Origin: a virus | DNA length: 31,168 nucleotides | IMG/VR virus record: IMGVR_UViG_3300046323_000573 | Location: 1 to 31,168 of that record | Strand: one strand, 5' to 3' | Shown here: one piece after another, positions 4,150 through 26,120 of the stretch | Layout: the number at the start of each line of letters is the position of its first letter | Position numbering within the stretch: position 1 is the first letter of the stretch | Made by a program: the position numbers and the translations under genes | The notes under the pieces: model-generated | The model's input: only the letters and a program-made list of their open reading frames with translations | Databases searched by the model: none | Told to the model about the DNA's origin: nothing

Positions 4150-4163
4150 CTTACTTTCTTTAG

Positions 4164-4237
4164 ACTTGCTGGAGGGATTCGAACCCACGACTTTTAGTTT
4201 TGCAGACTTCTTCTTTGGACCACTCAGACACAGCAAG
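4164..4237 (-). tRNA. tRNA-Cys (anticodon GCA)
   Basis: Leftward tRNA with a perfect 7-bp acceptor stem (CTTGCTG/CAGCAAG), discriminator U (typical for Cys), D-loop with AGTGG, anticodon loop CTGCAAA giving anticodon GCA, and T-loop TTCGAAT. The anticodon stem has only three firm pairs and the T-stem has a T-T mismatch, so it is somewhat degenerate. No CCA is encoded. It is embedded in a protein-coding operon and must be excised by RNase P and RNase Z-type processing. Confidence 0.8.
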
Positions 4238-4242
4238 ATTAG

Positions 4243-4312
4243 TAGCGTAGCGTGGACTCGAACCACCCCTCTGGCTTATGAGACCAGAATGCAACCTTTA
4301 CACTTTAACGCT
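4243..4312 (-). tRNA. tRNA-Met-like (anticodon CAT)
   Basis: Leftward tRNA with anticodon stem CTGGT/GCCAG, loop CTCATAA (anticodon CAT) and T-loop TTCGAGT with GTGG/CCAC. The acceptor stem shows five firm pairs (AGCGT/ACGCT) and a likely A discriminator. The D-arm is weak (GTGT/GCAT with wobbles), giving a short 70-base gene. The 5' boundary could be one or two bases further out. CAT could read Met, or Ile if C34 is modified. It lies five bases upstream of tRNA-Cys. Confidence 0.65.
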
Positions 4313-4745: not shown

Positions 4746-5003
4746 CTATATCATTAATAGGTTAGTCTGATGAGTCAGTACAACTTTGTATTCGTCTGTC
4801 TCTTCTATTTGCTCTGCAATAACACCGTTGAACAAAACTTCTGATCCGATGTTATTAAGGATAATCTCCTTACAGTCTGTTGCAGCATCAATCAAAAATA
4901 CTTTTGGCTTTTCTTGATCGATACCGAACAAATCTTTTTTCTCTTCTAAGTTTTCTACTTTTAGTAGAACTCTTTCAAATAATGGCTTCATACTTGGCTT
5001 CAT
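4746..5003 (-). CDS. groES: GroES-like co-chaperonin
   Basis: 85 residues from ATG 5003, four bases after the groEL stop. A GTG at 5021 in frame would overlap groEL and is less likely. The opening MKPLFERVLLKV matches the GroES first strand (RPLxDRVxVK), GSEVLFN matches the GDIVIFN strand, and VVLTHQTNLLMI matches the final strand with ExDILAI. The mobile-loop region (about EKKDLFGIDQEKPK) is short and divergent, which is the part that contacts GroEL. It would cap the phage GroEL or the host chaperonin, as T4 gp31 does for E. coli GroEL (established). Gene order is groEL first and groES second, the reverse of most bacterial operons. Confidence 0.8.
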   Translation of the reverse strand: MKPSMKPLFERVLLKVENLEEKKDLFGIDQEKPKVFLIDAATDCKEIILNNIGSEVLFNGVIAEQIEETDEYKVVLTHQTNLLMI

Positions 5004-5007
5004 AGCG

Positions 5008-6546
5008 TTATAGTCCTGCACTAGTTATTAAACAATCTGTTTGTAGGACCAAAGAAGCAACTGAAGTAGCGTTCTCAAGAGATACTTGTACAACTTTGGC
5101 CGAGTCAATCACACCTTTTTCTAACAAGTTTTCTACTTTACGAGTCTTAACATTGATGCCTTGACCGTAAACTCTTAATCTAGCTTCGTACTTCTCTTTA
5201 TCCATACCTGCATTAGCTAAAATTTGTTCAAAAGGCTTCTGGATAGCTGCTTTAATCAACTCATAACCTTCTTTTTGACCTCCTTTTAGCTTCTTTTTCA
5301 TCTTGTACTTAGAGATGTACAATAAAGTAGAGCCTCCACCAGCAACATATCCACCTTCTAAGGCAGATTTAACTGCACTAACGGCATCATCTATTCTATC
5401 TTTCTTCTCTTTCACTTCAAGATCAGTAACTCCGCCTACAGTGACAATAGCAACAGCATTTCTTAAGTTTGATAACCTTTTTGAAAGCTTCTCTCTGTCA
5501 ATTGTGTCTGTTGTGTTCTCAACCTGGCTTTTTAAAACTTCAATTCTGCCTAATAAATCCTCGCTTTGCGAATCGCAAATTATAACAGTTCTGTTTTTGT
5601 CAGATATAGCTTTTGAGGCATGGCCTAAAACTGCTTTTTCTGAGAATTTTGGACTAAAAACTTTTGCTCCGGTGAAAATAGCAAGATCTTCCAAAATGTT
5701 AGATCTGTTTACCCCAAAATCAGGGTTCATACTAACTGATACTCTGAATGTACCTTGCATTTTACTTTTGACAAGCATTGTCATAACGCCTTCATCGACA
5801 TCTTCAGCGAAGATCAACAACCCCTTACCTTCGGACTGAGCTTTTCTCACATACTCAGCAACGTCTCCAACTGCATTAATCTTACCGTCAAAAATCAACA
5901 CGTAAGTGTCTTCTAGAACAGCAGTTCCTGTACTATGGTCTGTTACAAAGTGTGGTAATGACCACCCTCTATCAATTGACATACCTTCGATGTAATCTAC
6001 TGTAGTGTCTTTTGTCATTCCTTCTTGTACGTCTACTGTACCATCTACTCCGATCTTCTTGTAAAGCTCTGCAATAATTCCTCCGATAACCTCATCGTTA
6101 TTGGCAGAAATAGTAGCAATTTGCTTTACCTCTTTGTCGTTTACATTTTTCTTCAAGGCTTTTAATGCAACATTAATGTCCTCTAATCCAATTGTAATAC
6201 CTTCTCGAAGTTCTACGTGTGAAATACCAGAATCTAGTTTTTCTACTCCTTTGTTAATAAGCTCCTGAGTAATAACTGTTGCAGTAGTTGTACCGTCACC
6301 AACCAAGTCCACGGTTCTTCTTGCTGCTTCTTTTATTAACTTAGCACCCATCTCCTCATAAGCATCCTCCAAATGAATACTTTCTGCAACTGTAACACCA
6401 TCTTTAGTAATGTGAGGCTTAAACCCCATTTTATTCTCGATGATAACAGTCTTACCTTCAGCACCCATCGTAGTCTTTACTGCATTTGATACAGTGTTTA
6501 TCCCATTTATAAGGGCCTCTTTAGCTTCTGCTCCTAATTTTAACAT
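5008..6546 (-). CDS. groEL: GroEL-like 60-kDa chaperonin
   Basis: 512 residues, ATP-dependent protein-folding chamber. Signature pieces are in order: GAEGKTVII and ITKDGVTVAESI (equatorial, catalytic Asp in TKDG), DLVGDGTTTATVI (nucleotide binding), an apical domain with LIFAEDVDEGVM and VSMNPDFG, and ALEGGYVAGGGSTLLYI (equatorial AGGG). The protein is some 30 residues shorter than cellular GroEL and ends CLITSAGL, without the GGM-repeat tail that normally projects into the cavity. All ATP-site elements I can check are present. It is probably used to fold capsid or other large phage proteins, with the co-chaperonin encoded directly downstream. A dedicated phage GroEL is uncommon; phages more often carry only the co-chaperonin. 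Confidence 0.95.
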   Translation of the reverse strand: MLKLGAEAKEALINGINTVSNAVKTTMGAEGKTVIIENKMGFKPHITKDGVTVAESIHLEDAYEEMGAKLIKEAARRTVDLVGDGTTTATVITQELINKGVEKLDSGISHVELREGITIGLEDINVALKALKKNVNDKEVKQIATISANNDEVIGGIIAELYKKIGVDGTVDVQEGMTKDTTVDYIEGMSIDRGWSLPHFVTDHSTGTAVLEDTYVLIFDGKINAVGDVAEYVRKAQSEGKGLLIFAEDVDEGVMTMLVKSKMQGTFRVSVSMNPDFGVNRSNILEDLAIFTGAKVFSPKFSEKAVLGHASKAISDKNRTVIICDSQSEDLLGRIEVLKSQVENTTDTIDREKLSKRLSNLRNAVAIVTVGGVTDLEVKEKKDRIDDAVSAVKSALEGGYVAGGGSTLLYISKYKMKKKLKGGQKEGYELIKAAIQKPFEQILANAGMDKEKYEARLRVYGQGINVKTRKVENLLEKGVIDSAKVVQVSLENATSVASLVLQTDCLITSAGL

Positions 6547-8475: not shown

Positions 8476-8884
8476 TCTTCTTTACTTTTTTAATTTTCTT
8501 TTCTATTTGTTTAATTGTTTCTTTTACACTGATTTTATAATCTAAATCTAGGTAAACAGTACTTCCTGGTAAAGCTCCGTCTGCTTCTGAGAAAAACACT
8601 ATAGCACCTGGCCTAATTTTAGTCTTTGTCTCTATTGCTTCTAAATCTTCTTGCTTAACTTGGAAGATTGCTTTAGTAGGACTGTCTGACATCTCCATTA
8701 AATCTTCCGGTGGGTCAATCCCAAGCTCTTTGTAGTACTCATAATCTCTACCGTAATCATCTTTTTGTACACCTTGTGTGTCTAAAAAAGATTTTGCTAA
8801 ATTATCCCCGACATCTTTTTTTAAGACCATCGTAATAATTGTTAAATCAATAAACTCTTTTTGCGGCTTTGACTTCTTACTCAT
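8462..8884 (-). CDS. Hypothetical protein, 140 aa
   Basis: Unrecognised. It starts with a basic segment MSKKSKPQKEF, contains an acidic middle (DDYGRDYEYYKELGIDPPEDL), a beta-rich part around KIRPGAIVFFSEADGALPG and VYLDLDYKIS, and ends in a strongly basic helix (IKQIEKKIKKVKKNG). It overlaps the SSB start by 14 bases and the preceding small gene by eight bases. The context suggests a DNA-replication accessory, but that is positional only. Confidence 0.6.
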   Translation of the reverse strand: MSKKSKPQKEFIDLTIITMVLKKDVGDNLAKSFLDTQGVQKDDYGRDYEYYKELGIDPPEDLMEMSDSPTKAIFQVKQEDLEAIETKTKIRPGAIVFFSEADGALPGSTVYLDLDYKISVKETIKQIEKKIKKVKKNGVK

Positions 8885-11290: not shown

Positions 11291-12688
11291 TTAAGAAATA
11301 TTTAACAAAGTTGCTATCTCTTTTTTCAGCCAATTTTGATTAGGTCTGAATGTAAAATTCTCCATAATCCAAACTAGGTAACCTTTATCTTTAGCAAGTA
11401 TTGCATTGAGTGTGTGATCTTTATACTTACCAAAAGTAAGCCTAGTTGTACCAACACCTGACACTGTAACACCTACTGTTTTTGCTATATTAGGATTGTA
11501 CTTTTTCTCAAGGTTTGACTTTCTTGGTCTATTTTTTGCCTCTATCGGGTAGTTACTTATTAGAAACTCTCCATTAAAAAGACCCCAACCATAACCTTTT
11601 ATAAACTCTACAGTAAAATCCTCAACTCTTCCAAATCTTTTATAGTTCTCACTAAGATCAATAACAACGGTCTTTGTCTTATTATCGTGTATACGAACCC
11701 CTCTACCAATCATTTGGTAGTAAAGTGCAAAAGACATTGTTGATCTTGCTAGTATAATAGTCTCTAATTCTGGATAATCAAACCCTGTAGTTAGGATCCC
11801 TACGTTTATTACAACCTTGATATCTCCATTTTTAAAACCTTCAATTATCTCATCTCTTTCTTTTTTAGAGGATAGTGAACTAACATATCTAGAACCTTTT
11901 ATCTTATTTGATAAAATTTCTGCCTCCGCTATAGAGGGTACAAATACTAGTATTGATTTAGAACCTTCATACAAACAATGCTCTACATTATCAACAACTT
12001 GTGATTGTAGGTCATTATTCTGATAGAAGCTCTTCATGCTATCTTCTGTGTAATCTGATCCTGATGAGTTAACTTTTAAAAATGTATCATCCTGCTCAAC
12101 TATACGGTATTCTAGAGGGGTCCAGTGACTTCCGGTCACCATACTTCCTATTTGATGAACATAAGCAATATCAGTAAACAACTTTCCTTTTACTTTTGTT
12201 AGCATCTTAAGCTCGGCACCACTCATAGAGCTCGCCAATATAAATGGTGTTGCGGTAAGTCCTAGTGTATTGTTTATTCCTAAGTCTTTTAAAAAAGAGC
12301 GTAGTTGTGATCCTGACTTTACGCCAATATGAGCCTCATCAATAATAAGCTTCTTGACTTTTAGTCTCTTTAGCTCATTGACGGCTTTCTTTATAGAACC
12401 TATAGTTGCAAAGGTAACTTTACTTATTTCTTTTACTCCAGCAGATGCCGAGTATATAGTAGCTTCACCGCCAACATCTATAAACTTCTTATAGTTCTGC
12501 TCAAGCAACTCTTTTGAAGGCTGTAGGATAACCACAGGCTCGTTTAACTGCTTTACTATTTCTGCTATTACAATTGATTTACCGGCACCAGTAGGTAACA
12601 CAAGTAACTCTCGTCTTGACTTATCTGAGTTAAGCAGTTCCAAACCTTTTGCAACTGAATCACTTTGGTAATCTCTTAATTTATACAT
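11291..12688 (-). CDS. SF2 DEAH-box DNA helicase with ExoX-like C-terminal domain
   Basis: 465 residues. The frame could open at 12733, but the promoter box at 12704-12711 lies inside that extension, so ATG 12688 (MYKLRDYQSDSV) is the start. RecG/UvsW/type III-like SF2 motifs are visible: RDYQ, Walker A LPTGAGKS (31-38), LIIDEAH (motif II), LGLTATP (motif III), VFVPS and later ILTTGFDYPE and YQMIGRGVRI (motifs V and VI). After the helicase core, LTFGKYKDHTLNAILA and YLVWIMENF match the ExoX-like C-terminal module (FGKYKG..L.EI...YL.W) known from exonuclease X and phage proteins. It likely unwinds or anneals DNA during replication and recombination; the extra module may tether a partner or DNA. 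Confidence 0.85.
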   Translation of the reverse strand: MYKLRDYQSDSVAKGLELLNSDKSRRELLVLPTGAGKSIVIAEIVKQLNEPVVILQPSKELLEQNYKKFIDVGGEATIYSASAGVKEISKVTFATIGSIKKAVNELKRLKVKKLIIDEAHIGVKSGSQLRSFLKDLGINNTLGLTATPFILASSMSGAELKMLTKVKGKLFTDIAYVHQIGSMVTGSHWTPLEYRIVEQDDTFLKVNSSGSDYTEDSMKSFYQNNDLQSQVVDNVEHCLYEGSKSILVFVPSIAEAEILSNKIKGSRYVSSLSSKKERDEIIEGFKNGDIKVVINVGILTTGFDYPELETIILARSTMSFALYYQMIGRGVRIHDNKTKTVVIDLSENYKRFGRVEDFTVEFIKGYGWGLFNGEFLISNYPIEAKNRPRKSNLEKKYNPNIAKTVGVTVSGVGTTRLTFGKYKDHTLNAILAKDKGYLVWIMENFTFRPNQNWLKKEIATLLNIS

Positions 12689-12703
12689 ACTTAAATATTT
12701 TTG

Positions 12704-12734
12704 CAAAGATACAACAATTATACTAAACTGCAAA
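12704..12734 (-). promoter_or_regulatory. Bacteroidota-type promoter for the helicase gene
   Basis: On the leftward strand TTTG (12734-12731), 19 bases, then TATCTTTG (12711-12704). The start codon at 12688 follows after about 15 bases, leaving a very short leader, and this fixes the helicase start. Confidence 0.8.
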
Positions 12735-12771
12735 ACTTTTATGTAAATATTTTACAATTATTTTCAGTACT

Positions 12772-13125
12772 GTCTTTCTAAGGCTGTTCCTTAGAAGACC
12801 GCCTTTTTGTGGTACAATGTTTTGTAGGAAAACACCCCCTTACCCCCTCTTTAAAAATAAAAGAAGAAGTAAGGTGAGCCAGCAGCGGAAAAACACCGAA
12901 TCCAAGGACCTGCTGTAGATTTTTTATTTGTATACTGAAAGACGCTTTGTCTTATTCGACAGCATTATTTATTTAGCTGCCTACGTTCGTAAGTGGGCTG
13001 AAATCTTAAACAGCCCTCCTCTGGCGGTCTTCATTACAAAACAGTAATGCCCTCTTCCATTTAGCATAGGTTATACGAAACCGCAACGTGAATCTTTTCA
13101 GATAGCCACACGTCATTAATTATAT
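12772..13125 (-). ncRNA. Candidate structured non-coding RNA
   Basis: About 350 bases with no convincing gene, GC-richer than its surroundings (about 41% by hand count in 12961-13080), and transcribed leftward from one or two promoters just upstream. Visible helices on that strand: CACGT/ACGTG pairing 13109-13113 with 13086-13090, enclosing ATCT-GAAA-AGAT; CATTAC/GTAATG at 13032-13049; GGGCTG/CAGCCC at 12995-13016; GGCAGC/GCTGTC at 12958-12981 (works only leftward because of a G-U pair); AAGAC/GTCTT at 12939-12953; CAGCAG/CTGCTG at 12880-12915. A 10-bp long-range helix joins 13023-13032 with 12794-12803. A final 11-bp hairpin with one bulge (12772-12799) overlaps that helix's 3' arm, so the two compete. 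It does not match RNase P, tmRNA, 6S or tRNA patterns I know. A 36-aa frame (13116-13006) exists but looks accidental. Confidence 0.55.
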
Positions 13126-13131
13126 TTTTTG

Positions 13132-13162
13132 CAAAGGTACAAAACCTTTTTCAAATAAAAAA
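13132..13162 (-). promoter_or_regulatory. Weaker leftward promoter nearest the candidate ncRNA
   Basis: TACCTTTG (13139-13132) on the leftward strand is a perfect TAnnTTTG box, but the -33 position (13162-13159) reads TTTT rather than TTTG. Transcription would begin near 13125, immediately at the structured region. Confidence 0.5.
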
Positions 13163-13183
13163 ATAAAATTGTAAATATTTTTG

Positions 13184-13215
13184 CAAAGATACAAACTCTT
13201 TTTTTATTTTCCAAA
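13184..13215 (-). promoter_or_regulatory. Strong leftward promoter toward the candidate ncRNA
   Basis: On the leftward strand TTTG (13215-13212), 20 bases, then TATCTTTG (13191-13184). The bases ahead of the -33 box read TTAACAAATTTG, the extended form shared with rightward promoters. It is back to back with the rightward promoter at 13240. Confidence 0.75.
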
Positions 13216-13239
13216 TTTGTTAACTATTCTTTTAACTTA

Positions 13240-13271
13240 TTTGGATATTAGAAATCTTTTTTGTAATTTTG
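13240..13271 (+). promoter_or_regulatory. Rightward promoter for the late-type block
   Basis: TTTG (13240-13243), 20 bases, TAATTTTG (13264-13271), followed by the ATG at 13289. The -33 side reads TTAACTTATTTG. Together with the leftward promoter at 13184-13215 it forms a divergent control region of about 90 bases. Confidence 0.8.
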
Positions 13272-13288
13272 CATAAAAACCAATTAAT

Positions 13289-13573
13289 ATGTCAACAAAA
13301 GATTTTACCTATTCAGAATTTCAAGAACTTACCTATGAGGAGTTCTACGATTTGTTGTGGGAAGATGTATCAGAAAAGATAGTTTCTACAGCGTACCTCG
13401 ATGAAAACGAGGATTTTATAAGCAACCTTACATTTGATTTGTTCAGATTGTATCAGATGAATCCAGTATTAACAATAAGAGTTATGTCAAGAATGGCAGA
13501 ATCTTTCTTCTTTAATACTTTCAGATTTCAACCAATGACTAGTAATATTATTGAGATACAAGATAATTATTAG
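13289..13573 (+). CDS. Hypothetical protein, 94 aa
   Basis: First gene of the rightward block, with its own promoter and a leader of roughly ten bases. The protein is acidic and rich in Phe, Tyr and Glu (SEFQELTYEEFYDLLWED), followed by a helix with RVMSRMAESFFFNTF. It is soluble, with no membrane segment or known motif. Its position right after the divergent control region, apart from the structural genes, makes a regulatory or takeover role conceivable. Function unknown. Confidence 0.65.
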   Translation: MSTKDFTYSEFQELTYEEFYDLLWEDVSEKIVSTAYLDENEDFISNLTFDLFRLYQMNPVLTIRVMSRMAESFFFNTFRFQPMTSNIIEIQDNY

Positions 13574-24992: not shown

Positions 24993-25008
24993 TAAATAGT
25001 TAAATAAT

Positions 25009-25036
25009 CTTGCCCCATCTTAATCGGTGGGGTAAG
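25009..25036 (+). terminator. 11-bp hairpin after the capsid gene
   Basis: CTTGCCCCATC pairs with GGTGGGGTAAG (11 bp, two wobbles) with loop TTAATC, 17 bases past the capsid stop. No T-run follows, so it may be a weak terminator or an mRNA 3'-end stabiliser for the abundant capsid message. Confidence 0.55.
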
Positions 25037-25048
25037 AAATTTAACGAA

Positions 25049-25080
25049 TTTGTAGGATTCAATATTTATTTGTAATTTTG
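25049..25080 (+). promoter_or_regulatory. Promoter between the capsid gene and the next virion gene
   Basis: TTTG (25049-25052), 20 bases, TAATTTTG (25073-25080). The -33 side reads TTAACGAATTTG. The ATG at 25149 follows after about 60 bases of A-rich leader. Confidence 0.75.
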
Positions 25081-25148
25081 CAGAACAAACCAACCAAAAG
25101 AATGCAACCCAACACAGAAAAAAGTTAAGTAACCAAAAATTAAGAAAC

Positions 25149-26120
25149 ATGGCAATAAAGCCCAAAGAGACAGATAATGTTATCTTAAACATCTATGATT
25201 TTCAAATCAAGAAAGATACATTATATGAAATAAAAGAAAAGTTAGATACATCAGCACCAGATGGTTTTAAAGAGTTTAACACAACAAAAGTATTAAGTGA
25301 TACAGTTGTAGACACTTTCCCAGGAGCAGTATTTGACAGAGAAAGAGGTATTTGGGATACAGGTTTATACCCAACTTCTTCATCTTTTATGAGAGCTATA
25401 CCTGCAGACTTAAGAGTTGCAGCATTGAGATCTATAAAAGAAAACATTATTAAGCCCATAGAGGCAGAAAAAGGAGTAGATATTTTAGACCACACTGCTA
25501 ATAATAATCAGTTTTGGGATTCTTTTAGAATTGATTTGCAGAGAGGAAAAATATTTGACACAGCTAAGGCAGAGGATTTACTTAGGTTATACTTGTTACT
25601 TATCCACAGAAGAGTAACTCCTAAGCATATGGAATCTCATCCAGAATTTAAACAACCTATTTCAATGTACTGTATTGTCGACAAAGACAGTTCTGTATCT
25701 AGAGAGGCTGAAAGAGAGATGAGACAAGCTAAAGCATCTGCTTTATTCTACAACTTATTAGGATCAGATAGAGAAGGACTAATCAGAGTATTAGACTACT
25801 TAGGAATCAGTGCCAATAATGGTACAGAGGATGGAGTACTATACACAGTATTTGGAAACTTTATCAAATCTAAAGAGGACAAATTCCAAAACGATAAAGT
25901 CTTTATTGATACAGTTGAAAGATATCAAACTGAAGCTGGTGAAGAAGAGATTTATATCCACTCTAAATTAAAAGAATTTTACCTAAAAGGTAAAGTAAAA
26001 AACAAAAAAGGAGAAATCTGGTTAGACGATGTCTTTGTTGAAAGCGGTTGGAAAAATGCCGCTAGAAAAATCAAAGAAGATAAAGAGTTGAAACAGTTGT
26101 TTACTACACTTTTAGAATAA
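25149..26120 (+). CDS. Hypothetical virion-associated protein, 323 aa
   Basis: Downstream of the capsid gene with its own promoter. The N-terminal part is mixed (FDRERGIWDTGLY); the middle is helical with LRVAALRSIKENII and LLRLYLLLIHRRVTPKHM. The C-terminal part is helical with basic patches (KNKKGEIWLDDVFVESGWKN). No catalytic motif. Proteins at this position in Bacteroidota phages are often head or neck components, but that is positional inference. It ends just before an intrinsic terminator. Confidence 0.6.
   Translation: MAIKPKETDNVILNIYDFQIKKDTLYEIKEKLDTSAPDGFKEFNTTKVLSDTVVDTFPGAVFDRERGIWDTGLYPTSSSFMRAIPADLRVAALRSIKENIIKPIEAEKGVDILDHTANNNQFWDSFRIDLQRGKIFDTAKAEDLLRLYLLLIHRRVTPKHMESHPEFKQPISMYCIVDKDSSVSREAEREMRQAKASALFYNLLGSDREGLIRVLDYLGISANNGTEDGVLYTVFGNFIKSKEDKFQNDKVFIDTVERYQTEAGEEEIYIHSKLKEFYLKGKVKNKKGEIWLDDVFVESGWKNAARKIKEDKELKQLFTTLLE

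Follow-up and report, generated by a model that had tools for sequence, protein, structure and literature searches.

What is encoded in a stretch of 600 bases that carries no gene and lies exactly where the two gene blocks of a phage part from each other? The virus record analyzed here, referred to as the window (31,168 bases), consists of a leftward block with genes for a helicase, RecA, PhoH, SSB and GroEL and a rightward block with genes for terminase, portal and capsid proteins (RecA, SSB and GroEL were assigned by reading of the translations), and the two diverge in the gene-free gap 12689–13288, one of two gaps of more than 200 bases in the window. A sequence-only reading had proposed that about 350 bases of this gap (12772–13125) give rise to a leftward structured RNA, and it is this proposal that we followed up by comparison with related phages.

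A predicted transcription unit in the divergence gap

The features on which the following argument is built are located as follows:

11291–12688, minus strand: helicase gene (ResIII/Helicase_C; PF04851 and PF00271, phrog_16), first gene of the leftward replication block
12704–12711, minus strand: TATCTTTG, separate promoter box of the helicase gene
12829–12874, minus strand: P7, predicted intrinsic terminator found by terminator scan, a 15-pair hairpin (12874–12838) with the U-rich tail GGGTGTTTTC
12829–13126, minus strand: predicted structured non-coding RNA gene, about 298 nt, conserved in 18/18 contigs of the clade and backed by fold statistics
13132–13139, minus strand: TACCTTTG, Bacteroidota-type –7 promoter box of the RNA, a TAnnTTTG box present here in 13/13 members
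13184–13191, minus strand: TATCTTTG, second, upstream promoter-like box with the TAnnTTTG pattern
13289–13573, plus strand: gene for a 94-aa protein (phrog_38534, function unassigned), syntenic in the clade and first in the rightward packaging and structural block

The stretch lies well inside the gap, it is free of genes as had been claimed (reading frames do not exceed 48 aa in the 13 members compared), and the RNA is richer in GC than both flanks (40% versus 19% and 28%). The leftward TAnnTTTG boxes that had been noticed were located at 13132–13139, 13184–13191 and 12704–12711. They run on into the near-palindromic TTTGCAAA(A) (13132–13191, 12704–12711), and for this reason two of them also have a TAnnTTTG match on the opposite strand (12696–12703 and 13176–13183). 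Judged solely by the promoter type, the host probably belongs to the Bacteroidota.

The promoter and terminator patterns place the predicted 5′ end of the RNA near 13126 and its 3′ end near 12829, and the covariance model of the family (R1) matches the window at 12878–13116 with 252 bits. The terminator hairpin, whose arms were followed in the alignment of all 13 members and scored directly for the window, combines a pyrimidine-rich 5′ arm, in which C/U exchanges leave pairing intact, with a conserved G-rich 3′ arm made up of two G runs (GAGGGGGUAAGGGGGUG in the window). As P7 closes the conserved RNA near 12829, positions 12772–12828 lie outside it, and the originally proposed 3′ limit has to be corrected. 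The correction also affects the structures that had been placed there. A 3′ hairpin (12772–12794) lies beyond the terminator and is not conserved. The 10-bp long-range helix between 13023–13032 and 12794–12803 is indeed present in the window, but its 3′ arm is located past the terminator and not conserved: in the 12 members whose sequence reaches far enough downstream, an exact helix is confined to the window and the near-identical contig L002, while 8 of the 10 positions are kept in L009 and five to seven in the remaining members. Its 5′ arm is instead part of a conserved arm of the RNA, P3, and of the invariant segment CGCCAGAG. A switch between hairpin and long-range helix is therefore unsupported, both elements lying past the terminator and the helix being missing in nearly all relatives. 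The RNA may or may not take part in the early/late switch or serve as a decoy, as had also been suggested. What is left, on the evidence of sequence patterns, is an element with its own promoter, its own terminator and no conserved frame, as would be expected for a stand-alone terminated sRNA.

Several observations elsewhere in the window and its relatives may be recorded alongside. The second gene-free gap (378–1154), in which the window has no frame of 40 aa beginning with ATG, includes a stretch (692–1046) that matches positions 8788–9144 of L236 with 71% identity over 371 aligned columns; with its runs rich in G and C, it may hold terminators or a further conserved element that does not code for protein. 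A gap of 156 bases behind the capsid gene (24993–25148) is likewise conserved in the clade (72–97% in the longer matches). The replication block contains, clade-wide, a gene for a SegE-type GIY-YIG endonuclease (PF19835; 9783–10247, minus strand), and a phage GroEL gene with a small adjoining GroES-like gene was named by reading (4746–6546, minus strand); a GroEL homologue is also present in L215. In the latter, the homologue of the 94-aa gene (1984–2238) is opposite in strand to its rightward neighbors, unlike in the clade of the window, and a small gene of Cellulophaga phage phi17:2 (L219, 8932–9207) is placed like it, the similarity being one of placement alone.

Conservation and fold of the RNA

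A search of IMG/VR with the helicase yielded nine relatives that are strongly conserved directly upstream of the helicase gene. Pattern scans with several motifs of the RNA agreed with one another, and those with the 3′ motifs extended the collection to 18 public contigs, the same 18 that reach or exceed 64% terminase identity with the window. The RNA was found at the same site, between the helicase and the 94-aa gene, in all loci examined, and only once per record in six members of the clade that were searched over their whole length; the next relative by terminase (46%) did not give a significant match to the model. In five relatives, the RNA is 60–79% identical to that of the window, compared with 24–53% for the spacer to the helicase gene and 68–78% for the first 300 bases of that gene. 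Outside the clade, a model search of 395 Bacteroidota genomes returned no match, which is a weak test given that five candidates were scored per genome, and blastn against phages and plasmids returned nothing but short chance matches. A loose two-motif scan of genome contigs listed at least 118 stretches; the few fetched stretches that passed the loose motif filter showed nothing of the architecture of the RNA.

The structure was derived from an alignment of 13 distinct sequences (A2, A3) with RNAalifold and a covariation search over all column pairs. The latter contributed helix P5a and a pseudoknot with the P4 loop, and P5b came from reading the alignment. The resulting fold comprises 61 pairs in 15 helical segments and one pseudoknot. 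Its elements, all on the minus strand, are:

13085–13114: P1, stem 13109–13114/13085–13090 together with an inner hairpin, six pairs with two-sided changes in total
13092–13103: inner hairpin of P1, 13100–13103/13092–13095, with a GAAA loop in most members
13069–13082: P2, short hairpin, 92% of cells paired, covariation weak
13018–13065: P3, long arm GCU-AAA-UGG-AAGA-GG ... CC-G-CCA-G-AG(C), tip helix 13044–13049/13032–13037
12995–13016: P4, hairpin GGCUG..CAGCC, three pairs with two-sided changes, 100% of cells paired
13001–13006: first pseudoknot strand, in the P4 loop, partner 12917–12922
12917–12922: second pseudoknot strand, A-rich, directly 5′ of P6, partner 13001–13006
12932–12992: P5a/P5/P5b, three-way junction, ten pairs with two-sided changes
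12880–12915: P6, hairpin CAGCAG..CUGCUG, three pairs with two-sided changes (CG/UA/AU), 100% of cells paired

The junction is closed by P5a (12989–12992/12932–12935) and holds P5 (12976–12981/12958–12963) and P5b (12951–12953/12939–12941). The core four pairs of the pseudoknot are formed in 13/13 rows, and one pair changes on both sides between G-C and A-U. P3 contains the invariant segments AATGGAAGAG and CGCCAGAG and shows compensatory change in a single pair of the GG/CC step and in a single pair of the tip, the tip helix requiring a one-base shift in three members. P6 encloses GGAUUCGGUGUUUUUCC, which is invariant save for one C/A position. A GUAG/CUAC pairing beside P6 was rejected; its last base is taken by P6, and the pseudoknot extends into its 3′ strand.

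Across the 13 sequences, 94.4% of 792 cells that should pair do so, compared with 84.3% in shuffles, and sliding the partners by one to three columns lowers the value to 29–51%, although a structure has an advantage over slid variants of itself when it is tested on the sequences from which it was derived. More weight belongs to the two-sided changes, which affect 25 pairs and 84 cells, as opposed to 14.0 and 23.0 in shuffles, and 0 of 500 shuffles reached either value; the rows stem from a single clade and are related, such that not all of these changes are independent. Most of them fall into P1, P4, P5a, P5, P5b and P6. The comparison with relatives that the sequence-only reading had suggested thus brought the compensatory changes to light, and most of the six local helices it had named are real and covary. 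It had also taken the leftward strand from a helix that needs a G-U pair, and the full alignment supports this strand, with 40 G-U cells in leftward orientation versus five A-C cells that would become G-U on the opposite strand. Single-sequence folding yielded a z-score of –3.76 for the span originally proposed and merely –2.29 for the true RNA, and the case therefore rests on conservation and covariation and not on free energy. Invariant positions make up 44% of the unpaired and 43% of the paired ones, which is to be expected as such an RNA would work through its fold and its loops.

These data bear on two alternatives. One is that the region is no more than intergenic DNA, or hides a short gene, and owes its conservation to constraints on the DNA itself. 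Some members do have frames of up to 48 aa, but the compensatory pairs and the lack of a long shared frame contradict this explanation, and we regard it as most improbable. The other is that the RNA and its terminator form a cis-acting leader that works by attenuation or antitermination, in the manner of a riboswitch or of put/nut elements, and controls whether transcription continues into the helicase-recA block. In favor of this, transcription toward that block would begin with the RNA, and a terminator stands at its end. Yet the TAnnTTTG box of the helicase gene is found in all members with sequence there (12/12), and 112–296 bases separate the terminator from the helicase start; read-through, though it may occur, is thus unnecessary. 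With a promoter of its own for the helicase, the RNA does not look like the leader of the helicase mRNA. Furthermore, the terminator includes neither the pseudoknot nor any covarying helix, and a conserved alternative pairing of the terminator arms was not found. Such a leader appears improbable.

Known RNA families and possible protein partners

No family of Rfam 15 reached its gathering cut-off over the RNA in a test that included 6S, tmRNA, RNase P, SRP, ROOL, GOLLD, riboswitches and ribozymes, and at E values up to 10 nothing credible appeared over the RNA in the window and six other loci that carry it; a known RNA family was accordingly ruled out. The only Rfam matches in the window are two tRNAs. 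One of these (4243–4312, minus strand; 33.3 bits, cut-off 29) adjoins tRNA-Cys (4163–4237) and is not reported by ARAGORN. The same program proposes permuted tmRNAs over tRNA-Met genes in L237 (12757–13328) and L242 (11720–12105), which are likely false positives.

Protein coding was rejected as well: none of the 13 members has a reading frame longer than 48 aa within the RNA, no long frame is common to them, and a conserved protein frame, named in the sequence-only reading as evidence against an RNA, was thus not found. In four relatives of 123–131 kb, each searched with a positive control, genes were absent for a TnpB/Cas12f-type nuclease (PF07282), a reverse transcriptase (PF00078) and Ro60/TROVE (PF05731), which would be the phage-encoded partners of OMEGA/TnpB guide RNAs, retron ncRNAs and Y RNAs, respectively, and these three classes were rejected on this basis, although a Y RNA might still use a partner protein of the host. 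A description of the RNA was not found in the open-access literature. The closest cultivated relatives are the Cellulophaga phages phi17:2 and phi4:1 (Lightbulbvirus), which have the 119-aa gene in common with the window and whose terminase and helicase are 34% and 40% identical. They differ in that the RNA model does not match them and in that, close to the corresponding position, phi17:2 carries a tRNA array; crAss001 gave no match either, and the 12.5 bits obtained for csAssE-Sib are at chance level.

Taken together, comparative sequence evidence strongly supports a real non-coding RNA gene, folded and strongly conserved, which is apparently undescribed and without match among the catalogued RNA families. 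The original proposal of an undescribed leftward structured RNA holds because of covariation in 13 homologues, the lack of an Rfam match, the conserved promoter and terminator and a position at the sole divergence point of two near-complete relatives.

Could the RNA belong to another class of structural RNAs of phages, for instance those that serve in packaging or form ROOL/GOLLD-like RNA-only assemblies? ROOL and GOLLD are likewise phage-encoded, elaborately folded and of unknown function (PMC12286853), and the terminase gene lies 2.6 kb from the RNA. On the other hand, the RNA of about 298 nt is far shorter than the GOLLD members of >800 nt, has another fold without Rfam match and is encoded at the divergence point, outside the tRNA islands. 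We consider this possibility a little less probable still than that of a leader.

Possible roles: free RNA or origin transcript

In the two near-complete relatives (128,227 and 131,453 bases, both with terminal repeats), the RNA marks the only clear divergence of gene direction as well as the minimum of the cumulative GC skew, and the gene arms on either side are similar in length. This raises the main rival to a trans-acting RNA, namely that the first leftward RNA runs over the phage origin and that its fold and G-rich 3′ end favor a stable RNA-DNA hybrid which primes or opens replication. The helicase, RecA and SSB genes come next, and there are precedents. Phages of the c2 type produce a non-coding transcript in the interval that separates their first two early promoters, where early and late genes diverge. 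It presumably starts their replication, and plasmids can replicate from cloned origin regions (PMC7150918). ColE1 RNA II is a non-coding transcript able to open an origin (PMC5043065). Like the PE1 transcript of Lactococcus phage c2 (Ceduovirus), the RNA predicted here is non-coding and lies between the first two leftward promoters at the point of divergence, but host and phage are unrelated and the RNA has a conserved pseudoknotted fold and a terminator. With RNA II it may share the character of a structured non-coding transcript, an origin-like place and a G-rich stretch; it differs in stopping at an intrinsic terminator, and an antisense RNA I is not evident. Placement of the origin by GC skew was rejected, as the skew tracks gene direction, which alone can yield such a minimum, and it is thus no independent evidence. 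A DnaA box is absent near the RNA (the single one in the window is at 25600), the RNA is missing in more distant relatives, and a primer needs neither a conserved releasing terminator nor conserved loops. We therefore judge an origin transcript to be possible but somewhat unlikely.

We favor, with a probability of about 0.45 and hence tentatively, a stand-alone RNA gene whose product is a compact, folded RNA with a role in trans, because a primer would hardly account for a freeing terminator and for loops that do not vary. Host RNA polymerase would make the RNA as the first leftward transcript when infection starts, transcription being predicted from the promoter and terminator patterns, and the terminator would free it as a separate molecule. 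The freed RNA would then act in trans, its conserved unpaired segments binding a protein that most plausibly belongs to the transcription or replication machinery of host or phage, while the host is being taken over or when early genes give way to late ones. A local role linked to an origin would suit the location at the divergence point and the GC-skew minimum just as well.

To our knowledge, few structured phage RNAs have been described, and several of these have no settled function. The RNA described here is universal in its clade, strongly constrained and encoded at the point from which early and late transcription run apart, perhaps close to the replication origin. The consensus, the covariance model and the helices named here allow direct testing, and the family is a candidate for submission to Rfam. 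We think it rather doubtful, though conceivable, that it represents a new class of phage RNA machine, i.e., an early, pseudoknotted RNA of about 300 nt, carried by a whole clade of Bacteroidota phages, that would bind the host machinery for transcription or replication at the divergence point and redirect it by a mechanism new among viruses. If the RNA indeed acts on host polymerase or on the origin, this would constitute a new takeover route for phages of Bacteroidota.
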